A stretch of DNA of 64,000 nt from Diphasiastrum complanatum (Eukaryota > Streptophyta > Lycopodiopsida > Lycopodiales > Lycopodiaceae): contig CM055092.1 of NCBI GenBank assembly GCA_029204225.1, positions 86,664,537 to 86,728,536 on the forward strand, in the 5' to 3' direction. Under the pieces are notes generated by a model that saw nothing but the letters and a program-made list of their open reading frames with translations, did not search any database and had not been told where the DNA came from. Positions 40,956 to 59,560 of this stretch are shown here, in pieces (position 1 is the first letter of the stretch; every line of letters begins with the position of its first letter). A program made the translations under genes and the position numbers.

Positions 40956-41374
40956 GTTGAGGTTGTTCTACCAAGTCAGCTTGTGCAGTTTTATCTCTTC
41001 AAGCATTTGGTAAGTAGTTTTACCAAAGAAGGCAGCATCAGCGGGATTATTATTGCCTCTATTTCTTTATTGCAAAGGACTGATGGAGAAAACTGATTTC
41101 TGCTTCTATTTCTAGGCATTTGGTAAGTAGTTTAACTATCTATAGAAGGGAGGCAGAAGCAGAAGCATTGATGCGGGAAACTGACTTCTGAATTGATGGA
41201 AGTGATTTCGTCATCTTTGAGGAAGAGCTTTTTGGAACTAGGGAGTGAGGACACAGGATATGCATGAGGAAGCAGGTAAGTGCTCGCAAATGCGTTGTTC
41301 CTAAGAAGAAACAAGAGTGAGATCGTGAAGCAATAAATTATCTTTGCAAGCTAGGCATCTTGGAGCTTTCAGCA

Positions 41375-41883
41375 ATGTCAAGGTATCACGGCAAGGCGCA
41401 TCGTTCGTTCGATTCAGAAGGCACGAGCATTGGAGTGTCTCCGCCTCTCTCGCCTCCTCGTCACCCTGTTTATTTTGTGCAAAGTCCTTCGCGCAGCGAG
41501 TCTCAAGATGGCGAGAAGCCATCTTTCCACTCAACTCCCCTGGCATTGAGTCCTACAGCGTCTCCGCTTCATTACTCCTTCTCTACAGATGCTGTAAGAA
41601 CAGCTCCGAAGCCTGGTTCGAGAAGAGTCCTACCTCAGCCGACGTCGGGAGTCGCCTCAATTCGTCAGCCTTCTCAAAAGAAAGGCTACGTGCCATGGAC
41701 TCCGGGCACGATAATCGAGGAGGAAGAGCAGCTAGCCAGTTCTGCTAAAAAGAAAGGATTGTCACGCTGGTGCATGTTCTTGATCAGTTTTCTGTTCTGC
41801 ATTTTGCTTCTGACTATTGGAGCCTTGATATTTTGGCTAGTTTGCCAACCTCATTCCCCTCGGCTACTCGTGAAGGTAGTTCA

Positions 41884-41938
<55 letters not shown>

Positions 41939-42966
41939 TTTGTGACGCATATTGTAATGAACATTACTTAGAGGAAAAGATCTGGTTATCGTAGCTTACC
42001 TCAGAGGGTAGAACATAAACATCAGACAATGCTGTGTACGTTTTGTCTTTTGACGTAAGGATACCATTTATATAGCACTAGCTGGAGTTTATTCTATGTG
42101 TTCTTCACAATTACTAGATAAAACTATCGTGTCTGCAAAGGATACTGCTAAAATCCTCTTTTTGGGTTGCCAGTTAGTTAATCTTCTCTTGCATTTGATT
42201 GAATTCCAAGTCCTGATCTCAAGTAGAGTAGTTCATTATCGTAAGGCACATCATTATCTGGATAAAGACAGTTTTAGAAACAAATGATAGTTAGCTAGTC
42301 CGTGATGCAAGGACGACTGTTAATATTTGTGGATGTTGATGGTTTGGATAGAGTTATACGAACTTAATCTTACTTTTTACACGGTAATTTCAGGATGTGA
42401 TGTTTAAGGAGCTAGAAGTTGTTCCAGGAACTGATGAAGGCGTGCCCACAAGGGTTCTAACAGTGAACTGCACTATTCTATTGACTTTAAGCAATCCTTC
42501 TCAGTATTTCGGAGTACATGTCAGTGCCTCAGAGATCGATTTAGTCTACTCTGAACTAGTTGTCGGCACAGGCCAGGTAAGTATTTGGTTTAGACTGGCT
42601 ACATTACAGCTTGTTCAAATGGTAGCAAATGCTTAAAAGGTCAGCAACTAGGTTGAATGTGGATTGACTTTTTTCCAGGTACCTAAGTTTTATCAGCCAA
42701 AGGACAGTGAGAGAACCTTCTCTGTGAATGTTGCTGGTATTAAGCTACCACTCTATGGTGCTGGACCTAGCCTGCAAAGCATTACAGATGCTGGAGGAGG
42801 AGTTCCTTTTCATTTGGGAGGAGTTCTACAGTCTCGTGCGTATGTCTTTTGGAAATTCGTCAAACCAAAGTTCAGAAACTACATATCATGTGACGTAATT
42901 GTGAATAGCAGTGGAATGGCCTTTCTCAAACTTATCCAAAAGGCCTGTTCGTATACTCGAAATTGA
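41375..42966 (+). CDS. LEA_2-family single-pass membrane protein (intact)
   Basis: Three exons: 41375-41875, 42394-42576 and 42679-42966, all with GT-AG introns in phase 0, give 323 residues. The N-terminus has the hallmark PVYFVQSPSRSESQDGEK (about residues 29-46), followed by serine/proline-rich sequence, a VIEEEEQ acidic stretch and a hydrophobic segment (WCMFLISFLFCILLLTIGAL) near residue 132. The C-terminal part is a LEA_2 beta-sandwich (ILLTLSNPSQYFGVHVSAS, FYQPKDSERTFSVNV, KLPLYGAG, PKFRNYISCDV). This is the architecture of the plant 'late embryogenesis abundant hydroxyproline-rich glycoprotein' family. Biochemical role unknown; related LEA_2 proteins act in stress and membrane-wall processes. 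The ATG chosen is the first in the conserved frame. No disruption seen. Confidence 0.93.
41887..41935. repeat. (GA)n microsatellite in intron 1 of the LEA_2 gene
   Basis: 49 bases of GA starting 11 bases after the 5' splice site of intron 1. A tract this close to a donor could influence splicing, though the donor GTAGTT itself is intact. Confidence 0.95.
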
Positions 42967-46020: not shown

Positions 46021-46120
46021 ATAGAAATTAACTAAAAACTCTATCTCTACCACATTTTTTAAGTGAGGAATGGGTTCCCCTCGATTCTACCATAGCAGAA
46101 AGTTTTAGATCGAAGTTTTT

Positions 46121-46777
46121 ATGGACATTCAAAACTGCATGAAATGTAGCACGGGTTCAAAAGCCAGTAGACTATATTGGTATTTACCATTTGCAATTTT
46201 TGTAGATTTTTTTGCTAGATGTAATGTTCGTAAAACAGCTACAATGTTCATTGCTAAGGATTTAACTAATGAAATGATATCAGAACTCCTTGATGATCAT
46301 TGGGATGTGAAAACTGATGGCAGCATTCGATATAGAGCTAACAAATCATCCATGATATTTAGATATCATATAGAAAAACAAATGCTTTCTTTTATGGTTT
46401 ATTATAGAAGATGGATTAGAAATAATAATGAATGGAAAGCATTAGATCAAGACTTTACAGTGAACCATCAAGAGCAAATGCAAATAGAGGTGAAGCAAAA
46501 TGAGGTTGTTATTGCAACAATTGAAGTGGAGGAGGACTGGAGTCTAAAATATATACGATCGGAACTTACAATGCTCCAATTTGACATACCTCAAAGCTAT
46601 GGTTTTTGAGTAAATGGAAGAATGGTACGTCTTTGTATTTAAATAGTCTGTTATGTAATTGTTATCCTGTTATTTATTAACAATGATTTATTGATAGTGT
46701 AGATTAGAGCAAGGCAAGAAGATCATATCCCATGCAAAGATTTATTGTCAGGCATAGAAATTGTCGCAACAAATTAA
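46121..46777 (+). pseudogene. Spliced gene remnant 1, unknown protein
   Basis: Exon 1 (46121-46624) encodes MDIQNCMKCSTGSKASRLYW and continues to SELTMLQFDIPQSYGF, with one in-frame TGA at 46607-46609, then VNGRM. A GT-AG intron (46625-46702) leads to exon 2 (46703-46777), which reads IRARQEDHIPCKDLLSGIE and ends in TAA. Frame and splice phase fit, so this was a real gene. Total about 193 residues. No family recognised. It has the same strand as the next two remnants and may belong to the same mobile unit. Confidence 0.55.
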
Positions 46778-47334
46778 AGCTTTGATGAATCAATAAATCT
46801 ACAATATTGGTGAGCTTAACTTTCCTTGTGAAATTTTAGATTGCTAACTTTTGGCTCCTTTTATATTAACCCACATTGTTTATTGATAAATGTAATTCCA
46901 TTGTTTTCATGTGCAAGTTCAAGGAAAGTGAAATGAAAGATTGAAATAGCAACAATAGAATATCAAATGATGGAAATAGCAATAATCAAATATCAAAAGA
47001 CCCAATAGGGTCATCATTTGTACACATTGAATGTAAATTTTTGAAGTACATATTTTTATATTGGCCTTTCAATAAGACCATCTATCTATTTTTCTATATA
47101 AATTTCTTGTCCATGAGCTCTTTCAAGTGTAAGCTCCCCAGCTTCTTGATTCTTGTCACCGATGTTGCATTAGAGAGAAAAATCTTAATCATCTCTTGTC
47201 AAAATTCAATATAGATCCCGCAGATTCATTGCAGCCGTTTGGAAATCACCATTAGATATGCGACACTTCAGAGATACGTCAATTCCTATAACGTGTGCGA
47301 AGCATTTATGTGCAATGTCGGCCAAATCCATAGG
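46778..47334. other. No supported gene
   Basis: AT-rich spacer between gene remnant 1 and the promoter repeats of gene remnant 2. Confidence 0.5.
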
Positions 47335-47500
47335 TGACACATGTATGGTTGAAAAGCAGACACATGTATCTGCCCGTGTGGAGTAATCATTAATAAAACA
47401 CACGAATCAGAAATTGGCACGTGTGTGGTTGAAAATCTGACACGTATATTTGCACGTGTGGAGCAATCATTAATAGGACACACCAATCAAAAATTGTCAC
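47335..47500 (+). promoter_or_regulatory. Two 82-bp tandem repeats with CACGTG cores
   Basis: Units at about 47335-47416 and 47417-47500 share ATGGTTGAAAA/GTGGTTGAAAA, a CGTGTGGAG(T/C)AATCATTAAT block and a following (G/A)ACACACxAATCA block. GGCACGTGTG, TGCACGTGTG and GTCACGTGGC are G-box/E-box-like plant regulatory cores. They end about 40 bases before a TATA box, so they probably act as upstream promoter elements of gene remnant 2. Confidence 0.65.
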
Positions 47501-47538
47501 GTGGCGTTTTTTCATCTAATGCACAAAAAATCTCTCTC

Positions 47539-47546
47539 TATATAAG
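47539..47546 (+). promoter_or_regulatory. TATA box of gene remnant 2
   Basis: TATATAAG in a pyrimidine-rich context (TCTCTCTCTATATAAGCAGA), a near-ideal plant TATA element. It lies about 240 bases upstream of the ATG at 47782, leaving a roughly 210-base leader. Confidence 0.7.
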
Positions 47547-47781
47547 CAGAGACCATAATTAAAAAACATTTGCCTATCAGATTCGTGAGTCGTTCCTTGC
47601 TCTCTGTCACCCAAACTGGATATCGGAGCCGTGCGACCTTCTACATTCTTTCTGAGAGACTTGGTTGCTGCTCGCGCCACTGCGATATTGGAATCTACTG
47701 GGTTGATATCGGAGCCACGCGAGGATCTACATACAATTAATTCATCTACGACCTACTTGCGTGTCTGTGATATCGGAAGGA

Positions 47782-48630
47782 ATGGAAAAGACTAAATAGA
47801 CCGCGCGTCCAAAATCTATTGTCCTGTCTGCTGGTCAACCTACATCATCCTTGCATCCTGCAGCTGCTCGACCTCGTGCTAGGGGGACTAGCAGAAAACC
47901 CCGTCCATGGCTCAGAGATATTAGGAGGTTATAGAAGTCCACCAACCTTCTGATACCGAAAGCTCACTTCAACAGAATAGTGAGGGATGTGACGAGATCT
48001 TTGTTCGTGGATGTCAGATGGCGCGTGACTGCAATTGAAGCATTGCATACAGCCTATGAAGATTATCAGATTAGGTTTTTTGAGGATACTGTGCTTGCTG
48101 CTGTACATGCAAAGCGGGTGACTATCATGCCCAAAGATATGGAGCTTGTGTTTAGGCTGAGGAATCAGTACGAGCAGGTGTTCAAGACACCTCCACCTCC
48201 CCGACCAGCTCCCAGGGTTAGACCCCCTTATCAGAGGAAAAGAAAGCAATCAAGGCCAGTGAGGTCAAGAACCAGGGCCAAAAAAAACCAAATCAAGCCA
48301 GTGGAAGACTAGCCAACTCATGATCAAGTTGGGTCGTCTAGGGTGGAAGCTGAAGAATCCCCCTCTCCTCCACCTCCGTCTAAAAGAAGATTAGTACTAT
48401 CAGATGAGACCGAGCAGATGATAAGCTAGACCCAATTGATTCTTGATACACTGAAAGTTCAAGAGGGTCTTCCTGTCACTCCTTGTCTAAATTTTTTACT
48501 AGATTACTCTTCTGATAGTGACTAGTCTTTGGATGTGCCCAGACGCACCACAGAGGATCTGGATAGATATATCACAAAATCAATTGCTCTCTTTCCTAAT
48601 CCCATCTCAATCAATAGGAACTGTATATAA
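47782..48630 (+). pseudogene. Histone H3-like domain with linker (exon 1, first part)
   Basis: 849 bases in one frame without any indel, ending in TAA at 48628-48630, but with five internal TAG codons. The first two TAGs align with H3 Gln5 (T-K-Q-T-A-R) and Gln55 (Y-Q-K-S-T); the other three are in the linker. Loop 1 of the fold has the canonical H3 length, so it is not CENH3-like, while many fold residues differ from canonical H3 (RWRVTAIEALHTAYEDYQ). K4 and R8 of the tail are kept; the K9/S10 region reads RPKS. After the fold comes a C-terminal extension of about 150 residues rich in Pro, Arg, Lys and later Ser/Asp, which canonical H3 lacks. Confidence 0.85.
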
Positions 48631-49015
48631 AACTTTAGTTGTTCAATATCCAATCGATCCCATGCTGACATTTTTTTATTCTGAGCGATATATAATTTTT
48701 GACGAGTACATAGCTAAAAAAATAGATAAATTAGGTGGTCACTTTGTATTCAATATATATTCGGCCTCATATATGAATTATTTTAATCTTGTTATCTGTA
48801 AGGAATTAATGAATAAGTCTTTGGACCTCACAAACCCAGTTGTCGAAGCTGGACTCAATTATTGTGTTCAGTTGTACAAAAGCCACATTGTTCCAGGTGT
48901 TTTTGTGCGTACTCAATTTTTTTTGTCACTTGTTTAAGGATGAGCAATCAGTTGCATCATGTTTACGACGCATGCCAAGCGATAGCAAAATTTTTGTTGT
49001 ACCATACTGTCAAAA

Positions 49016-49114
49016 GTATGTATTGTTTAATTTGAGTTGTATGTATTGTTTTATTATATGCTTTATTTGTATTTTTTTTCATTTACATATCATTGACTAT
49101 TTCGTTGATTGCAA
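49016..49114 (+). other. Intron 1 of the H3/Ulp1 gene, acceptor mutated
   Basis: Donor GTATGT at 49016. The reading phase places the acceptor at 49112-49114, which now reads CAA rather than CAG. Exon 2 from 49115 would then give HH followed by a TAG codon and FVHIISL, with correct phase from exon 1. Confidence 0.55.
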
Positions 49115-49156
49115 TCATCACTAGTTTGTACATATTATATCACTAAGAGTGGATGA

Positions 49157-49161
49157 AGCCG
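49157..49161. other. Target site duplication of element C, left
   Basis: AGCCG, repeated at 54696-54700. Removing C and one copy restores exon 2 reading frame (VDEAG|LCNPRVL). Confidence 0.92.
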
Positions 49162-49635
49162 AGTTGAAATTCTGTTAGGATCTAGTGCAGTATGCAAATC
49201 ACATTACACAATCACCATAGCCACTCCTCACAAGCTCTCAAAAATGGCATAACAAAAGTTAAGTCTATTATGACGAAACACTATACATATAGCAAAGCCC
49301 CAAGCTGCATGGGCTCCACAGGTATCACTAAACTGGCCTACCACCTGCCAAACTAGAGTTAGGCCCAATATGGCCACATATACTGACAAACCCAAGACAT
49401 GTCCGTGAGTATAGCATAATGAACTCAAAATCACTGTACAGGCTAATTTCTTCCTACGTGTGGCTACCCAGCTAACCCAAGTAGTCGTCTACGGGATCAG
49501 TACCCGATCAATATATCCTAACGGGTCACGTCCCGATCACAACCATATATAGTAAACCAAATAAACTGTACACTAATTACATCATCACACTTAGAACTTA
49601 TACTAATGAATCATATCACAAGCTGATTTCTAACT
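49162..49635 (-). repeat. 3' LTR of element C
   Basis: 474 bases, minus-strand ends AGTTAGAAATC and GAATTTCAACT (imperfect inverted repeat). Closely matches 54229-54695 and more distantly 30187-30608. Confidence 0.93.
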
Positions 49636-49647
49636 CTCTCCCTTAAG
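49636..49647 (-). other. Polypurine tract of element C
   Basis: Minus strand CTTAAGGGAGAG directly before the LTR start AGTTAGAAATC. Confidence 0.85.
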
Positions 49648-52600
49648 CTCAAATGTGATAAGAGTGAAAAACAATATATTGCAGCAGCGTCTGGAGTGTC
49701 CAAAAGATGTTATGCATATCACAACTACTATGTACTTGACTCACACTCAAGCACACTAACAAACCACCAGGTTTGACTCACAAAGTATCATGTAAACACA
49801 ATGCTCATATAGAGAGTCTATCATACTCTCGACCAACTGACTCGTCCCCAATCCGACTTGAACACAAGTGGACCACATGAGCGACATGGCTTAAACTGAG
49901 AAAATCCCACTGCCACCATGAGACTTACATCCTCCATCTAGCTAGGCTGACATCCTATCAGACACTTACAAGTACGAACCTGTAAAGCTGGCATAAATGA
50001 GCGACTGAGGCTCAACCTGAGGAAATCTTACTACCACCATAAGATTATACCCTCACTAGATGGACAGCTAGTAGAAATGATAAGTCAATGAGCATAAACG
50101 ACTACTTTGTTTCAAACGTAGCAAATGCACAAGCAAATACAACTCCAACTCAGATCTAGACTCCCGTGACAAGGCAACATGCAAGTCCACACACACTCAT
50201 GCAAACCAACACGAATGATAAAGTGTCAAATACATGACCAAGGCCTGCCCAAACTGTGGTATCCTGTCATACCAACACCTATGCCACTTGTAGATCTGTT
50301 GCTACACCACTGGTCTCCAAATCAAGTCTCCAACCATGGCCCACACCTGTAATCAAGATGCCCAAGCATATCACATAGATGTCCTCATACATCATCCAAG
50401 ATCAACCATCTCGAACCAATGAGTGCTCCAAGCCTGATGTATCTCCCAAACAAGGCTATGCTCCAAGCCGCTTTGCCCTGACATTCTGTCCAATAAGTCT
50501 TGAAAGTTGATCCCCATCCATTCCCCATGCTCCAAGCACAAGAATCTACCAAGGACTCAATGAATGAATGTACACAAACCTCACCATAGGCTATACCTGA
50601 GTAGCTCGCCTACCTCCCAGAGATACTAATGATGATCTCCCTATCCTACATTCCATGTAGGTTTAACTTTCCATGCTTGACGTTGCCAACTCTGATTTGA
50701 CTAGTACATAGGCCTCCCACCAAGGAGCCTATCTCACCAACACTGTATCCATCATAGCGTCCAAGCCAAAGCAAATGCAAACTAGATCCACTATTGTGAT
50801 GAACAACTCACCCACGATCCATAGCATATCAGGTAGGATAGCTCCAGAACCCTGTACCCTGTACCATCTGATCACCAAGTATCCATTACCCACTAATAGC
50901 TCCCCAAGAATCTGTCCACCTGTAGTGCAACTAGACTCCAACTGGATCTAACCAAAAGTTGCATCCTACTTACCAAATAATGATGGATAGAAACAACATG
51001 TGACGCCAACCTGGAGATCACTGTGCATATAACCATGCAGCTCACCTGATCACTCACCAAAGTATCAGTTGTCACTCCCTGAGCAACCATCTCCATCCAT
51101 GTCAGCTCACAACCACGGGCATGCTGGATCCACATCGCCCCGTAATGCTCTCTATGCCCTCAGGATATGTACCACCACAGGTACACTCCATGCCACCTAC
51201 CTCCAAGTAGGCATGACCCATTCCTAGGTCATCACACATGATGCACCAGTGAAGAACATCGTCCATACATCAAATGACATGTCATATCTGAGCAATTGTA
51301 ACATCTCCCTGAGTGCCACCCCAATGGACTTGTCATCCACATACTATGCCACCTGATGTCTCTGATCCTGGTCACCATCATGCTAGACAAGTCGAACTCC
51401 AAAGCATCACCTGCTCCACCTGGCTCCTAGTATCTTCTCCCTCTCCCTGGCTATGTGCCACCTGACACCATGCCACCGCAAGCATATCCTTGAGTCATCG
51501 CTCATGAGATCCCGAGACCATTGTCTCCCTTATCGTATTGAGGTATATGGTTCTGAGTGACTCCCTCTAGGCTTATCCCTAATCTCACCACCTGAGAATC
51601 TGCACCATGGAAATTCCAACACTTGTGCCAAGCCTAGACTCCTGAACACAACCAAATGCATGAAAGCTATAGGTAGCTTATCCACGCCCGTGATGGTAGA
51701 TGTCTCCCCATTGATGCCAATGTCCAAAACTGCCCCCCTGTAGTAATGCCATCCTGTACTCCCAAATGAGCACACCATGAAGTCCTTGCCATCAGTGTCC
51801 CCTCTAGTAGATCGCTAGCAAAACACCCATCATAGTGTTTGCCCTCCGGATCACACCCTGTGCGATCTCCATCAGCTCTCCAACCTAGAGCTGGCTCTCA
51901 AAGCTTCACGCTTTGTCCATTTGTGTTTGCAGCTTCCTGATTCCATCATGAATTCCACTTGTAAGTCCTGTCCATGCCAATGACTCAAGTCCAATCTGAA
52001 ATAGCTGCCCCCTGATGATCACCCCATGTCACCCTGCAGTGGTATTTCTACTAGGTATTCCAATGCCATCACTGATCTCGAAGATCTGAACATCTACCAT
52101 GTAGTGCCCACCTGTATTCTCCCAAGCTAGCTCCAAGCTACTTCTGTGAATGGTTCTAAACCACTCCTTGAGAATACACTGAGATGTGAACTCCAAAGCC
52201 ACCATCAAGTCCCTCACATGACTATGCACGCCAATATCCCTCCAAGTGAACCTGTGAGATCTTCCATGCCCAAACCAAATGATCTGCACCCTGTCATCGC
52301 TGGAATCTGCATCTCTGATGCAATACTGATATGGCAAATTGACTTGACTTATCCAAACTGGCAGTTGAAGTGTATATCTTCGATGACAAACCTGACACAC
52401 TGCTCCACAGCTACAATGACTTGATCAAAATTGACTTATTGACTGCAAAACTGCAAAATCATCACACTCACCACTCGTCAAGGGCATCCAAAGTGTGACT
52501 ATTGACCTGTTCTTCATCCTCTGCATGTCCCACACATAGCTCGTCCAATGCAAGTATGCTATCTTGCCCAATGGCTTCCAACTGGCACCACCTCGTATTT

Positions 52601-54216
52601 CCATCACCTGTGACCACCAATATGTGTGTACCTCCAAGCTAACATGTATTTCCCTCCAAACGAGAAATTTCCAAGCTACAGATGTGTGTGTCAATGCAGC
52701 TATCACCTAACTCGACAATGCCACTACCGATCATACCTATGAGAGCGTTCCCCCAAAACGCCACTTGACGTTGGTTGGTTCGAACCCCAAGAGTTGAACC
52801 TGATCACAAAAAAATTTCACCTGTAACCAGCATACCATGCCTACCTCTCACATGTGATTGCTTGCCCTCTCAAAATTGTCACCAATGATGAGTAGTCACG
52901 CCGCCAAACTACACTTTCGTCGCCAATACTAGCTTTCTCCATACAATTCCGCTACCATTCGGCCCCATATTGCATTTACTGCCTCCAAACACCCTGTTAC
53001 CCTGTCAGGAGTAAGTAATAATGATTCAAAAGTGGTAATGCCTCATTGTACCACCATGTAGCAGGTTTCACCAGCCAAAAATTGCCTCGAATTTGGCCCT
53101 ACGATACCCAAATAGCGAATGTAACCCATCACTAGGTCACTGGCACTCCGCTTGATAAAATGGTGATGAAAACACTCCAAAACACCTTTCTTCCTACTCT
53201 GTGACGTCGCTCTGTCCGCTGGCTATGAGCAGCCAGTTTCAGGGGTCATTTTGGCCCGAGGATGGCCAAAAAATGTGCCTTCTAGCCAAAATTAGGCCCA
53301 TTTCCAAAATGCCTTGCAAAAATGAACTGGTTCTTCATAATGAAGATTTTTAATGAAGTGAAGTTCACTTTGAACTTCGGGTCCCTCCACTCAATTTCAG
53401 AGTGAAATTTTTTTATTGAAAATGAAGGCTAGTTTCCCCTTCATTTCTTCATGGCCCCATTCTCTCACCATCCAATGGTGGTTTCACATCGAACGGTCCA
53501 TCTTGCTCCCCAACTAATTGTGGCCTCCTAGTCACACCTTGGCAGCACCAGGGTGCCCTACTTTATGATTTTATAACATCAAAAAAGGCTTCCTAAAGAG
53601 AAAGATCTATGCTTTTCACTCTGTAAACCTCGGTTTCCAAACCACAGCTCTAAGAGAGGATTTCTTGGGCATTTCTCAGTCTTTTACTAAGATATCACTT
53701 GCAGCTCCTATCTGGCTGAGGTCATCCTACCTCCAGATCAGTAACACAATTTACGGCTTGCCAATTGGTGTGGTATCAACTGCAAACACACTGGTTTTCA
53801 TTCCAAACCGTCAACACCCCACGAAACTGGAAATTTCTCAAATTTCCTCCATTTTCCACCCAATTGATCCCTGTAAATTGCTATGGCTCTCCATCACTGC
53901 TCTTTGCAAACTTTCTGCAAGCCCCGTTGTGCCAAACGGCTGTCCACACAATGAATCATGAAACCACCATCGATGATTTCCCCGAAACCACCGAAACTGC
54001 AAGTTTCTCCGTGAATTCTCTCCAGAATCCACCTACGAGGATCGTTCTGATCCTCCCCGAAGCTCCGATCGAAGGAACTTTGCTGCCTCCTACCATCAGG
54101 ACTACCTATATCCCGTATGGAGTTCTCTCTCTTGAGACGCTTTGAGTGCTATTTCTCTTGGTGAAAGACGCTATCCCATAGCTCCACTGGATTGTGCATA
54201 CCTGCTACACCCTGTA
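49648..54216 (-). other. Interior of element C, non-coding and compositionally biased
   Basis: The plus strand is poor in G and dense in short words such as CTCCAAGC, CCACCTG, CCATGCC and CATCACC between about 50250 and 52700, which suggests an old, eroded array or an unusual captured sequence. The 53220-53730 part resembles the leader of element A, including GCAGCTCC(C)TATCT near the primer site. No supported gene. Confidence 0.65.
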
Positions 54217-54228
54217 GCTCTGATACCA
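54217..54228 (-). other. Primer-binding site of element C
   Basis: Minus strand TGGTATCAGAGC directly adjoining the 5' LTR: initiator Met tRNA primer, as in elements A and D. Confidence 0.92.
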
Positions 54229-54695
54229 AGCTGAAATTCTGTTAGGATCTAGTGCAATATGCATATCACATCACACAATCACCATAGCCACTCCTCACAA
54301 GCTCTCAAAGATGGCACAACAAAAGTTAAGTCTATTATGAAGAAACATTGTACATATAGCAAAGCCCCAAACTGCATGGGCTCCACAGGTGTCACTAAAC
54401 TGGCCTACCACCTACCAAACTAGAGTTAGGCCCAATATGGCCACAACAAACCCAAGACATGCCCTTGAGTATAGCATAATGAACTCAAAATCACTGTACA
54501 GGCTAATTTCTTCCTACGTGTGGCTACCTGGCTAACCCAAATAGCCGTCTACGAGATTAATGCCCGATCAATATATCCTAACGGGTCACGTCCCGATCAC
54601 AATCATGTATAGTAAACCAAATAAACTGTAAACTAATTACATCATCACATTTAGAGCTTATACTAATGAATCAGATCACAAGCTGATTTCTAACT
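54229..54695 (-). repeat. 5' LTR of element C
   Basis: 467 bases. Compared with the 3' LTR it differs at scattered positions and by a short deletion near 54445, so the insertion is not brand new. Confidence 0.93.
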
Positions 54696-54700
54696 AGCCG
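54696..54700. other. Target site duplication of element C, right
   Basis: AGCCG, the partner of 49157-49161. Confidence 0.92.
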
Positions 54701-54933
54701 GTTTGTGCAATCCAAGGGTGCTGAAAATGAGCTCTTTGAGATCAACACACCTCAATGTCGACATTGAGATGTACAAAAGCATGATCATTTATTTTCCAAC
54801 GAAGGCCCTGTGTGTAGCAAAGCACATAGAGATAATAGACGCACAGGTAACCAATTTTTCAATTACTCTTTTCGTGATGCAAATTGCCATATAAAAAAAA
54901 TGTGAAACTAACATTCTGTATTTTGATTCTTAG

Positions 54934-55041
54934 TCCTCTCCGCAAGTTGACTCATTCAATTGTGGTTGGTATGCCATTAAAAATGTAAAATGCTTTATGG
55001 CATGGCTGATCAGCCAAAGTGAAAATGTCGATATACGTCAA
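54934..55041 (+). pseudogene. Ulp1-like exon 3 with active-site Cys motif
   Basis: Bounded by TTTGATTCTTAG and GTAATTTGG splice signals, phase 0 at both ends. Encodes SSPQVDSFNCGWYAIKNVKC: the PQ glutamine and the (N/D)CG cysteine are in the spacing of C48 peptidases (PQQ.N..DCG). Itself undisturbed. Confidence 0.82.
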
Positions 55042-55249
55042 GTAATTTGGGTTTGGATGTACACTGATTTTATTTATATGATTTTTTGTTTTTGTGTATT
55101 CGTCTAACTTGTCCGTTGTTGATGATTTGCAGTTCATCTGTCCAAAATTCACACAAAATGACATAAAACATCACCATAAAACGTTTTGCTATTCGGAGAT
55201 CTTGAAGGCAATATTGCAACCACGCGAGTCTACTACTTTTGATTTTATT

Positions 55250-55475
55250 TGCCAACACTCCCTTGCGTGTCTACGATATCGGATATTCGTTTCAGCTGCC
55301 CAATATCACTACGACGCGATGCTGCTACTTTTTTCCTATTTTTTCTGCACACCGTCGCGTGCCTGCAATATCATTACATGCTTGTTTCCCAAATATCGCT
55401 GCCATGCGATAGTGCCTCTCTGGATCCGAATTGTGGCCATTCCTCGCGTTGCTGCAATATCCAGTATTTAGTGTT
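55250..55475 (+). promoter_or_regulatory. ATATC-rich leader repeats before gene remnant 3
   Basis: GCGTGTCTACGATATCGG, CGCGTGCCTGCAATATCATT, ATATCGCTGCCATGCGAT and CGCGTTGCTGCAATATCC follow one another at 40-75-base spacing. Very similar CGCG/GATATCGG phrases fill 47620-47785, the leader of gene remnant 2. This suggests a shared leader or regulatory module; its function is unknown. Confidence 0.5.
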
Positions 55476-55491
55476 CTCTGTCATTTTTTAT

Positions 55492-57008
55492 ATGAAATCT
55501 GACAAGCTGCATAAATTCCTCTTTGATGCTGGTGTTCTAGACAGGACTGAGTACTTTTCATCTCTTTTTAGACTTAAATTTGTTGTGATAGATTTGTGCT
55601 TGAGCACAAATCTCACCTATTGGAATTATTCGAAAAGTTTCGGACTAGCATCCTCGAATTATCTCTTGTTATTGATGGCCTGAAGTGTATTCACTTCCAT
55701 GAACTGATAGTTGCCTAGCCTGAAGCCAAGCACAAGCATGATAGGAAGTTCACCAAGCTTGATGAGAGCCTGAAGTTGGTACAATATTGTGAATCCCATA
55801 GGAGATTATGCAGGTTTATAGCTGAGGGCATAGCTTTTGTTTTCTTCATATCTGCGTTAATACCTGATGAAGGCCAATCTTCCAGATCAATTGGTGTTGG
55901 TTCTTCAAGTAGAACATCTACTCAGAGATGTACTGTCGATGTGGACAAAAATTTAGAAGACGAAGTATTGGGTGATGAGAAAGAGGCTAGGCTGGCTTCG
56001 ATGTATGACCCTGCTCTGTCACGGTCGATGGTAATATCTTCTACATCAGGTGTAGAAGAACACGATAAAAGCAAGAAACTGCTTGACATTCCTGTATACC
56101 ATAAGAATAGCCTACCATATTTATCATTGAATGATATTGGGGATGTGTTTGACATGAGAGAGGACGAGATCCTATCTATACTAGCCAATGCATTGTCAGA
56201 ATTTTCGAATATAATAGACATCAATCATGATGATTTAATTGAAGGGATTGACTATGAAGATGAAGGTGGTTGGAAGTCTGGAGAGCAGGCCTTACAAATT
56301 ACAAGGAAACAATGTCTAACCTATGGAGCAAATGCTCCTAGTGAGGAGGAGTTCATTGAGTTTCAAAAAAGATATCCTCCTCCAGAGCAATACGTTTTTT
56401 TTGAGGATACGTTTCTTGCTGGGCATGACTTGCATGGAAAAGGATTGTTGGAGTATGACTAGCATGACATTGTAATTTTCATTTTCTTATTCCATCATAA
56501 TCATATTTAGCATTGTATTCAATCAAAATCCATCTGAAAATTTAATCGATTACAAATTTTCTTATTTATGGTGCAGGACACAATTGAAGTTGATGATTTT
56601 ACTACGAGAAGAGGAGGTGTCCGAGGTGTTGTTGGCCATAAGGATTCAACATTGTGTCATTACCTGAAATACTTTGTACAAAATGAAATTTGTATTCAAC
56701 ATGACAAATTTTATTCACAAGCAGGAACTATAGTAATGGCAATAAAGGCATTGTCCTATTTTTGTGATGGACATAGATATCCTAACAGTACATACAAAAT
56801 CATTTTTGTGAACAGAGATATAGCTATCAAAATATTGGGTTATGTTTCTGAAAATGTACCCAAAAGATCATCTGCTTTAGCAGTGTATGCAAGTTATATA
56901 GAGTTGAGCAAAAGAAGATCAATTGATCATCTGGATCCATATGAGAGGAGACAATTTCTTCATGACCATACTGCTCAGCTGACCTTTGATACTGATGAGG
57001 ATATGTAA
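55492..57008 (+). pseudogene. Spliced gene remnant 3, unknown protein
   Basis: ATG at 55492 (MKSDKLHKFLFDAGVLDR), a one-base frame change at about 55575-55600, then FEKFRTSILELSLVIDGLKC, TAG at 55716-55718, and a long open part (RLCRFIAEGIAFVFF ... acidic middle ... KRYPPPEQYVFFEDTFLAG) to TAG at 56460-56462. A GT-AG intron (56472-56576, 105 bases) follows in phase 0, then an exon of about 143 residues (DTIEVDDFTTRRGGVRG ... TFDTDEDM) ending TAA. Roughly 470 residues in all, helical and acidic. I recognise no family. Strand, spacing and leader repeats tie it to gene remnant 2. Confidence 0.6.
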
Positions 57009-57679
57009 TGTTTTGATTGTTTTTCTATTACGATGATGAAGTTGAACTATTTCTCCTCAGATGTTGAAATGCCTTTTTGAATGAAATGAGATTTGTTGAA
57101 TATTTGGTTTGATATCTAAACTATGCTCTTCTGTAGAACCATTCAAATAATTGATATAAGTAGCATCTCTTTGAATTATATCCTCCATGGTTGGTTGCTC
57201 GATGAAAAGCTCCTCTTGCTTGCCAATGCGATTTCTCCATACCTTGAGAAGACCATATGCTCATATTTCCATATTCTTTTGCAAAAAATGTGGTGTGATG
57301 TAATAGAATATGCTGCAACCAGTAAAATACATATATCAGAAATCAAATATATGACGTTGCAAAACAATTTTTGCACAAAAACAAATAGTGAACTACCATA
57401 TAGTGTGTAACATGATCCTCTCCCCAACATTATGCTACCAATTTGACAGATATCTCACAATATTTTTGTAAATTTGCAATGTCGATTTCAGATAACTTTT
57501 TTTTTTTTGCAACATGCCAATCAAATTGTCGAGATTTCTTTTGTAGTTTTGGATGACAATATGGAACTCAAAGATTTTTCGATACTCGTAAAATCTTTAT
57601 AATGTTCTCTCGTCACCGAAGATGATATGCAAGACATAATAAATAAAAAAATTAGCAAGCATTAGAAAAACAAGGACAC
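57009..57679. other. Gene-fragment-like minus-strand stretch, otherwise nothing
   Basis: Minus strand 57290-57120 reads coherently as GLLKVWRNRIGKQEELF ... MEDIIQRDATYINYL but has no splice or family support. The rest, including a T-run near 57500, shows nothing. Confidence 0.3.
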
Positions 57680-58213
57680 CGTTCTAAATGTAAGCTCTGG
57701 ATGTAAGCTGCAGTGGAAACAACTTCAGCTTAGAAGCTCTTTGGCAAAGATGCGTGTGCCAGCATGCATTTGGATGACTCGACTAGGGTACGATTCTTGC
57801 TCTCGGCTTGACTAAGACGAATAGGGAGTGATAAATTGTTGTTCAATGCCTTGGCTCTGGCAGTACTCCTTGAATTTGGTAGAGATATATATTCCACCGT
57901 TGTCGGCACTCAGGGCTTTAATTTTCTTACCAGTTTATTTCTCTACATGCTCCTTAAAGATTTTGAAGCAACTGAAAGCTTCTGATTTCTTCTTGATGAA
58001 GTACACCATTGTCCTTTTGAAAAATTCATCAATGAAAGTGATGAAATACTTTGCATCCTTCAATGAAGGATTCTGCATTGGGCCACATATGTCTGTATGT
58101 TCAACATCTAATAATCCTCTAGCAACATGCTAATGGCTTGATCTAAATGGTTTCCTAGCATGCTTACCGAATAAAGAATCTCGACAGACATGTAATTCGA
58201 GTTCCTTATTTGG
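57680..58213 (-). pseudogene. pol: copia integrase fragment of F2
   Basis: CRDSLFGKHARKPF, then VEHTDICGPMQNPSLKDAKY, FITFIDEFFKRTMVYFIKKK, SADNGGIYIS and IEQQFITPYSS, AESKNRTLVE in changing frames: zinc-binding end and catalytic core of integrase. In-frame stops after SSH and EHVEK. Confidence 0.85.
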
Positions 58214-58217
58214 ATAG

Positions 58218-59170
58218 TCAGATCAAGAACAATAGATTGCTTAGACATATGTAATACAGAAACACCATTCAAACCATTTTTGCATGGTATGTAAAGAGAA
58301 TCGTAAAAAAAAGTGCCAGAATCCAAAAGTGACTTTAAAGGACGATGCTTATACGGGAGTAAACCAATATCAGAATGAATGACGTCTATGATGCCTGAAA
58401 GTGATTGTATTGGTTGCCATTCGCTTATGCTCGATGGATACAAGTCTGCAAAAGACAATATTCTATTTTAACACAAATATATCACAATAATGAATGTGGA
58501 TCATTAACATAGAAAAACCAACGTAAGTTGCATCACATACAATTGCATTTGAGTCAATCTACGAGATTGACATCCACCACCATAACTTCATTGTGCATAT
58601 ACACATGTTGAATCAAGACTTCTGAAATGGTTTGACCTCCCTTTGAAACTTTGAACTCTAAAATTCTTCCTTTCCAAAAGTTTATGTCATACATATTTGA
58701 TCTCTTTCTTTTGCGAAATGCACCTTTTGATGAGGGATGCATCACAACCCATTGTGCATGGTATCCAATAACCCTTCAGAATCCCTTTCATTACAGACAG
58801 TGATCGAATTGATCGCACTACATGGTCTTCGACTGCAAGCGGCCATTGCATAACAGTGCAAGATACAAAAGGATTGATAATGAACATCCAAGATACAAAA
58901 CGATTGATAATGTACAGAACGATTGATAACTTCAGTTAGTTGAACCATCCATGCAAGTTAGTTTAACTTCAGTTAGTTAAACTCGGGCAGTCTTTTGCCG
59001 ACGGGCAACAATATATTATCCAATCACATATCTAGACTGTGCCCGACGGGAGTTTTGAACTGGCTAAAAATATGCTCGAGAAATTGTAAAAAAATTTTGT
59101 CCGGCAAACACCGTTACCGTCCTGCACACATGTAAAAATATTATTTGGACATGTGGACGTCGAATAGTTG
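58218..59170 (-). other. Insert in F2 with spliced gene-like fragment
   Basis: Between protease and integrase of F2. On the minus strand a coherent stretch (RKRKRSNMYDINFWKGRILE ... LIQHVYMHNEVMVVDVN) ends at about 58555 and a second (DLYPSSISEWQPIQSLSG ... GTFFYDSLYIPCKNGLNG) begins after TTTTGCAG at about 58446, with GTAGAT at the donor side: an apparent intron of about 110 bases. The protein is not recognised. The 58870-58985 part has tandem GATACAAAACGATTGATAATG and TTCAGTTAGTT repeats. Confidence 0.4.
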
Positions 59171-59560
59171 AAAACTAAAAAAAAGTATCTTTACAAAGGG
59201 CCCTTATAGCGCTTGGACCTTCCCTAATGCTTTTCGAGTGCTAGGATCTTGCTTGTCTTATCGACTACTTTACATTGATCATATTCGAATTCTACTTTGT
59301 GTCCTAGATCTATTATTTTGCTTATAGAGAGCATATTTGTAGAAAGATTTGGTACATGTAGGACATTAGAAAGTAGTTTGGATTGATTATTTGTAAGGCT
59401 TATCTTACTGTACCTTCACCTTTGATAGCATGTGTGCTATTGTCACTTATGTGGACATATCTTTTGGTATTGTAAGGCATATAGGACTCGAAGCAGCCGA
59501 TATGGTTGGTCATGTGTTGTGTGGATCCAAAATCCAGAAATCAGGAGTTGTCGTTTGATG
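59170..59560 (-). pseudogene. pol: copia protease region of F2
   Basis: Minus strand reads SWFLD..STQHMTNHIGCFE, ISDNSTHAIKGEGTVRI and LLSNVLHVPNLSTNMLSISK, the retropepsin of a copia element, with the usual DSG active site degraded. Confidence 0.75.

Follow-up and report, generated by a model that had tools for sequence, protein, structure and literature searches.

The H3-peptidase gene and its family

The stretch of DNA analysed here, referred to as the window, comprises 64,000 nucleotides of Diphasiastrum complanatum (C1:86664537-86728536). It contains a decayed copy of a gene whose first part resembles histone H3 and whose second part resembles a cysteine peptidase of the Ulp1/SENP type (Pfam family C48). 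The remnant of a transposase-like gene and two further genes accompany it on an element which spans about 46.0-59.23 kb of the window. Relatives were searched for in the home genome (1.74 Gb, 5176 contigs), in which contigs are designated by C and loci by L numbers.

A preliminary description of the window had placed an H3-like tail, alpha-N and the H3 fold behind the ATG at 47782, followed by a basic/proline linker. All of these parts were recovered. Starting with this ATG, the window encodes MEKTK*TARPKS, then alpha-N and the fold of H3 and lastly the linker. The open stretch covering the fold matched the Pfam Histone family (E=3.4e-21), its best matches in the PDB were H3 proteins (2e-19), and the alignment of 47935-48309 with PDB H3 was gapless across 78 residues. 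A single-sequence fold prediction of the window H3 was poor (mean confidence score, pLDDT, of 55).

A genome search with the H3 frame of the window yielded 6233 candidates, the best 150 of which were scored and all matched (150/150). This number includes the window itself, and some rows from small contigs look like duplicates. Chance similarity was ruled out by the E-values of the H3 matches. The family matches listed occupy positions at tens of Mb on contigs C1-C23, on C24 none lies above 2 Mb, a distribution which would agree with 23 chromosomes, the number in the clubmoss Diphasiastrum. According to their identity to the window H3 frame, two subfamilies can be distinguished, subfamily A with roughly 62-94%, to which the window belongs, and subfamily B with roughly 54-62%. 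A copy of subfamily B (L035) possesses an intronless open frame of 434 residues, in which MARTKQTAR is followed by the H3 fold, the basic/proline linker and the peptidase's N-terminal part. In a search with this frame, 52 of the 109 rows obtained (best 97 of 9526 candidates) spanned both domains, i.e. extended from query residue 100 or lower to residue 420 or higher. Two separate neighbouring genes as the source of the window pattern were ruled out by the single open frame and by these 52 rows. The gene family joining H3 and peptidase, as proposed in the preliminary description, was found again in other copies (L035, L040 and the 52/109 rows), and since these carry both domains in one frame, the two parts are not confined to separate genes at the DNA level. 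Judged by their sequences, an H3-Ulp1-type peptidase fusion gene family is present in many copies in this genome.

To define the exons, 28 rows of subfamily B were aligned, consisting of the L035 copy and L039-L068 without L039 (which is the own copy of L035), L045 and L056 (which end before exon 4). Near-duplicates occur among them, e.g. L046/L048, L049/L050, L059/L060 and L065/L066. The alignment resulted in four exons and a C-terminal end ...YYFEL-stop. One of the 28 rows, L040, encodes 518 amino acids over the four exons, with all splice dinucleotides (six/six) being GT/AG and no internal stop. L062 is likewise devoid of internal stops but has lost a donor site. Motifs and exon borders are the same in both subfamilies, and the start MARTKQ was read in 16 of 29 loci of subfamily A (L004, L034 and L035 were left out of this reading, which also served for the analysis of constraint).

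The cut-off of Pfam C48 (PF02902, 20.7 bits) was passed by four of six sister readings from both subfamilies, namely by the spliced B copies L040 (3e-5, 24.4 bits) and L059 (6e-6, 26.7 bits) and by the A copies L023 (3.2e-6, 27.6 bits) and L020 (8.2e-6, 26.2 bits). As a reference for the catalytic columns, a host C48 gene was used (L001, C5:76129325-76129789), which was named NEDP1/SENP8-like by eye. In three aligned copies of the family, His, Gln and Cys fall into the same columns as in L001.

Selection between the subfamilies was assessed by the proportions of nonsynonymous (pN) and synonymous (pS) differences in four A-B comparisons covering the H3 core, the linker and the N-terminal part of the peptidase. 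For the H3 core, pN was 0.23-0.27 and pS 0.79-0.84 (ratio 0.29-0.33), for the linker 0.33-0.40 and 0.78-0.86 (0.39-0.52), and for the peptidase part 0.38-0.55 and 0.78-0.86 (0.47-0.65), the top peptidase value stemming from L009, which is frame-shifted in that part. The ratios are likely too high because synonymous sites are near saturation and dead copies are included. Both the H3 half and the N-terminal part of the peptidase are under selective constraint. A quite different explanation, namely that the element merely spreads functionless fragments of captured host genes, would account for the stops or frame shifts found in 26 of the 28 aligned B rows, and capture of gene sequences is reported to be frequent in plant transposons (PMC13317346). 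Against it stand the pN/pS ratios (about 0.3 to 0.65), obtained over a split at which synonymous sites are near saturation, together with the motifs and exon borders shared by the subfamilies. This explanation is disfavoured, has hardly any probability left and was rejected on the constraint between the subfamilies.

The H3 half compared with H3 and CENH3

Proteins of the family scored above the Pfam Histone cut-off. In the gapless core, identity to canonical H3 amounts to 43/84 in subfamily A and 40/84 in subfamily B, and identity to Arabidopsis CENH3 to 41/85 and 42/85, respectively. The core from alpha-N to alpha-3 retains the residues HAKR...MPKD or MPQD, which we take to be those of the H3-H3' contact. 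What the family has in common with canonical H3 is the gapless core and the ARTKQTAR start. By contrast, its tail is shortened and rewritten after residue 9, and the C-terminal end continues into the linker. With Arabidopsis CENH3 it shares the motifs TNLLIP, RW and EDY/EDF but not the longer loop 1 of CENH3, as it aligns without gaps to H3 and with a two-residue gap to the CENH3 sequence. Capture of a CENH3 gene was dropped as a firm claim in view of the similar identities (A, 43/84 versus 41/85; B, 40/84 versus 42/85).

Decay of the window copy

The reading frame claimed from the ATG at 47782 is not open in the window. Up to position 48600, exon 1 contains five in-frame TAG codons (47797, 47932, 48310, 48427 and 48523), beyond this position it is frame-shifted. 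In most of 19 relatives compared, which are those of the 29 subfamily A loci that span exon 1, the TAG positions are sense codons. Among the exon 1 differences that set the window apart from at least 80% of these relatives, 13/16 are C>T or G>A, a share which would match the expectation for a methylated, silenced copy.

Peptidase pieces that can still be read in the window are NHH*FVHII (49113-49163), AGLCNPRVLKMSSLRST...IIDAQ (54697-54846) and SSPQVDSFNCGWYAIK... (54934-55041). Taken singly, the pieces 48503-48937, 48813-49124, 54694-54894, 54934-55041 and 55082-55471 gave no Pfam C48 match. The four-exon C48 peptidase of the preliminary description holds insofar as the motif pieces are present and the exons of sister copies pass C48, while the window pieces on their own do not. 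Its exon layout has to be revised, since the presumed intron between 49.16 and 54.70 kb is a long terminal repeat (LTR) element of 5.5 kb and exon 4 is cut at 55165. A long intron was ruled out by the direct LTRs, which are 93-94% identical, by the 5-bp target duplication AGCCG at 49157-49161 and 54696-54700 and by the sister loci. Of 29 other loci compared, which include the near-duplicate-looking pairs L008/L017, L009/L010 and L024/L025, 17 could be aligned across the site, and the element is absent in all of them (17/17). Its outer ends are of the non-TG..CA type (AGTT...AACT), and its minus strand carries a putative tRNA-Met-like primer site. Nine frames of the element were scanned without a Pfam match below E=0.1.

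In most sister loci reaching far enough, a forward H3-peptidase gene lies between the left gene and the right gene, both of which are reverse. Compared to this order, the window looks as if a block of about 46.03-58.26 kb had been inverted and the H3-peptidase part 47209-55165 then re-inverted. The continuation of exon 4 in the sister loci corresponds to the minus strand of the window from 47209 leftwards. Because of the TAGs, the nested LTR element and the inversion cutting exon 4, the window copy is unable to make the protein. It is a dead, decayed relic of the element. The features are compiled in Table 1.

Table 1. Positions of the H3-peptidase gene, its carrier and the nested element in the window
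Feature	Position	Strand	Remarks
Companion gene 2 ("right gene"), C-terminal part	46030..46627	+	
H3-peptidase gene, exon 1	47782..49015	+	H3-like tail, alpha-N, H3 fold, basic/proline linker, peptidase N-terminal part
H3-fold open stretch, 125 aa	47935..48309	+	Pfam PF00125, E=3.4e-21; PDB H3, 2e-19
Exon 2, first part, catalytic His	49115..49161	+	Trp codon beside His is TAG here; acceptor reads AA
Nested LTR element in peptidase exon 2, 5.5 kb	49162..54695	-	LTRs 49162-49635 and 54229-54695
Exon 2, second part	54701..54846	+	Catalytic-acid position: Asn in sisters, Ser in window copy
Exon 3 (SSPQVDSFNCGWYAIK, with Gln and the catalytic Cys)	54934..55041	+	
Exon 4, start	55133..55165	+	Truncated at inversion breakpoint 55165
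Companion gene 1 ("left gene")	55492..57008	+	Divergent from H3-peptidase gene in sister copies
Transposase-like gene remnant, C-terminal exon ...SSQGMEKSHWQAR...	57112..57513	-	
Companion gene 2, N-terminal part	58265..58763	-	
Right terminal inverted repeat	59183..59229	+	Outer end ...CCTAATG

The carrier transposon

The preliminary description had suspected that the fusion gene is carried by a transposon, which is supported by inverted ends and a transposase-like gene on the same element. The carrier is an 8.9-kb DNA transposon with inverted ends of about 30 bp, a transposase-like gene, the H3-peptidase gene and two further genes. In the L035 copy, the inverted ends CATTAGAGGAATTACAAACATCAAAAGGGCC and CATTACAGGAGTTCTCAAACTTAGAAGGGCC are 8.9 kb apart, and 21 of their 30 outermost bases are alike. 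A search with the left end (best 40 of 825 candidates) revealed that all 40 matches scored reach the first base, and the flanks beyond this end differ between copies.

The left half of an element (L069) contains a forward gene with four frames harbouring the motifs ELDE, AGDLKSL...PCLYC, ICTLHGEVRI and SSQGMEKSH. Read by eye, it is a putative DDE-type transposase-like gene. Its parts gave no Pfam match below E=0.03, and the joined core gave none. In 24 pairs, which were picked by eye among the matches listed (109 rows; best 150 of 9039 candidates), a transposase-like exon is located 1.0-4.0 kb (median 3.2 kb) upstream of the fusion on the same strand. For the companion genes, of which one is divergent and one convergent, the pieces scanned gave no Pfam match near significance.

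At three independent copies with two ends, on C10, C14 and C3 (L073/L074, L077/L078 and L079/L080; C2993 is a repeat of C14), and at L035 no target duplication was found, though inversions could hide one. Of ten end pairs examined, two of five and then four of five were without a right end; the right end on C7 was not found either. An assignment to the Mutator-like elements (MULEs) including VANDAL was rejected, as there is no Pfam transposase match and no 9-bp target duplication at the three copies and L035. CACTA (EnSpm) was rejected on account of the CATTA ends, the lack of a 3-bp duplication and the lack of a TNP2-type Pfam match. Inversions of internal segments are recurrent among the copies (window 46030-58264, L035, L046, L048 and L055) and may have arisen by aberrant transposition, recombination or assembly.

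Between the divergent genes of L036 lie 1.2 kb in which ATATCG was counted ten times over both strands, often with CACGCG behind it, compared to 0.8 (maximum 4) in mononucleotide shuffles of this region, which were made for L036 only. In the corresponding region of subfamily B, ATATCG occurs seven times. The promoter region L036:2600-3800 and its B counterpart are also rich in ATATCG...CACGCG and ACACGTG. That the ATATCG repeats are a regulatory or binding motif is a guess.

Some further observations concern the surroundings. Helitron-like Rep-helicase frames, recognized by eye, border the L035 copy (L037 and L038, C6:21309900-21327699), the C-terminal part of the helicase being inverted and situated on the opposite side of the copy. 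The right end of the L036 copy (L036:7078-10000) is a run of N, which may be an assembly gap. At 41321-41968 the window contains a probable host gene among copia remains, which is proline-rich, has one membrane helix and by eye resembles LEA/NHL. In viral contigs, 12 pattern matches were obtained, none of them a relative.

Interpretation

A sister copy that is open across both domains suggests that chromatin may be the target of a counterfeit histone made by the transposon. The explanation considered best, to which we give an even chance, is a transposon-encoded H3-peptidase protein of 518 residues that would act on the chromatin of the element. Its H3 half would pair with H4 and be incorporated into or docked on nucleosomes, perhaps those of the element itself, and its peptidase half would free neighbouring chromatin proteins of SUMO or a related modifier. 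By analogy with the Ulp1-carrying VANC of VANDAL elements, such removal would relieve the element of part of its silencing. We infer every biochemical step of this model. A more far-reaching version, in which the H3 and SUMO protease of an element belonging to an undescribed superfamily with a new transposase replace host H3 in the chromatin of the element and strip silencing modifiers, so that the element builds an anti-silencing nucleosome of its own, is conceivable but doubtful.

Several findings weigh against the explanation considered best. The DNA-touching residues of H3, which presumably include the LLIR site, are kept only in part (LLIR is changed to LLIP). As mentioned above, 26 of 28 B rows are broken and a 27th (L062) lacks a donor, and even in L040 the tail is altered (MAHTKQTAC). 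Two A copies remained below the C48 cut-off (L006, 18.6 bits; L014, 14.2 bits), and a profile of four copies matched SENP2 (0.045) and Ulp1 (0.25) in the PDB only weakly. The catalytic Asp, located in HYDS of L001, is Asn in the family (KINS, KMNS, RMNS), namely in 14/14 sister copies read from both subfamilies (L040, L051, L055, L059, L060, L062, L014, L043, L047, L023, L020, L006, L009 and L019), and Ser in the window copy. This exchange may lower or abolish SUMO cleavage and speaks against a simple SENP reading. It could be explained by a pseudo-enzyme, in which the peptidase half is a binder of SUMO or a ubiquitin-like protein and the H3 half alone, as an altered H3, opens or marks chromatin. 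Yet His, Gln and Cys are retained, the N-terminal part of the peptidase is still constrained, and Asn serves in the triads of some viral proteases of clan CE and of papain. A pseudo-enzyme is rather improbable.

The single polyprotein-like frame with its long linker would also fit a self-processing protein, whose peptidase cleaves the linker or companion proteins and thereby frees the H3-like protein. This is very improbable, as C48 enzymes work on ubiquitin-like conjugates. Finally, the H3 half might act as a tether which brings the transposition complex to nucleosomes, with the peptidase-like half acting on the transposase or its SUMO state. Such a tether is in line with the transposase-like exon on the same strand in 24 pairs and with the Ulp1 domains of Ginger1 transposases (PMC2836005). 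On the other hand, the H3 and peptidase domains reside on a gene separate from the transposase. A tether is considered unlikely.

An H3-peptidase protein acting on the chromatin of its element would give direct access to the question of how an element could edit the chromatin it lies in, and could serve as a natural tool to deSUMOylate nucleosomes in a targeted way. To our knowledge, no transposon carrying a histone is known, whereas transposons with SUMO proteases are. In the open-licence PMC literature, no description was found of an H3-Ulp1 fusion or of a transposon-borne histone domain.

Comparison with known systems

With the SENP/Ulp1 SUMO proteases and NEDP1 (Pfam C48), the family has the His, Gln and Cys motifs in the same order in common, but differs by Asn for Asp and by the fused H3, overall identity to L001 being 16-22%. 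Closer to it in setting are the VANDAL elements of Arabidopsis with Ulp1-carrying VANC genes (KIU/Kaonashi), which are also multi-gene plant DNA transposons with an Ulp1 protein that is not the transposase. For VANC with Ulp1 (KIU), hypomethylation of related copies has been reported, and related Ulp1-carrying MULEs occur in grapevine, melon and rice (PMC13317346). As far as the accessible part of this source goes, an H3 domain is not mentioned for VANC, while the peptidase of the family studied here is fused to H3. Moreover, VANDAL/KIU elements are MULEs without terminal inverted repeats, in contrast to the carrier with its inverted ends of about 30 bp and a transposase-like gene without Pfam transposase match. 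The Ginger1 transposase bears a C-terminal Ulp1 or OTU domain (PMC2836005) and resembles the carrier in encoding an Ulp1-type peptidase on a transposon. However, the carrier gave no integrase match in Pfam, and in Ginger1 the Ulp1 domain is joined to the transposase, in the family described here to a histone H3.

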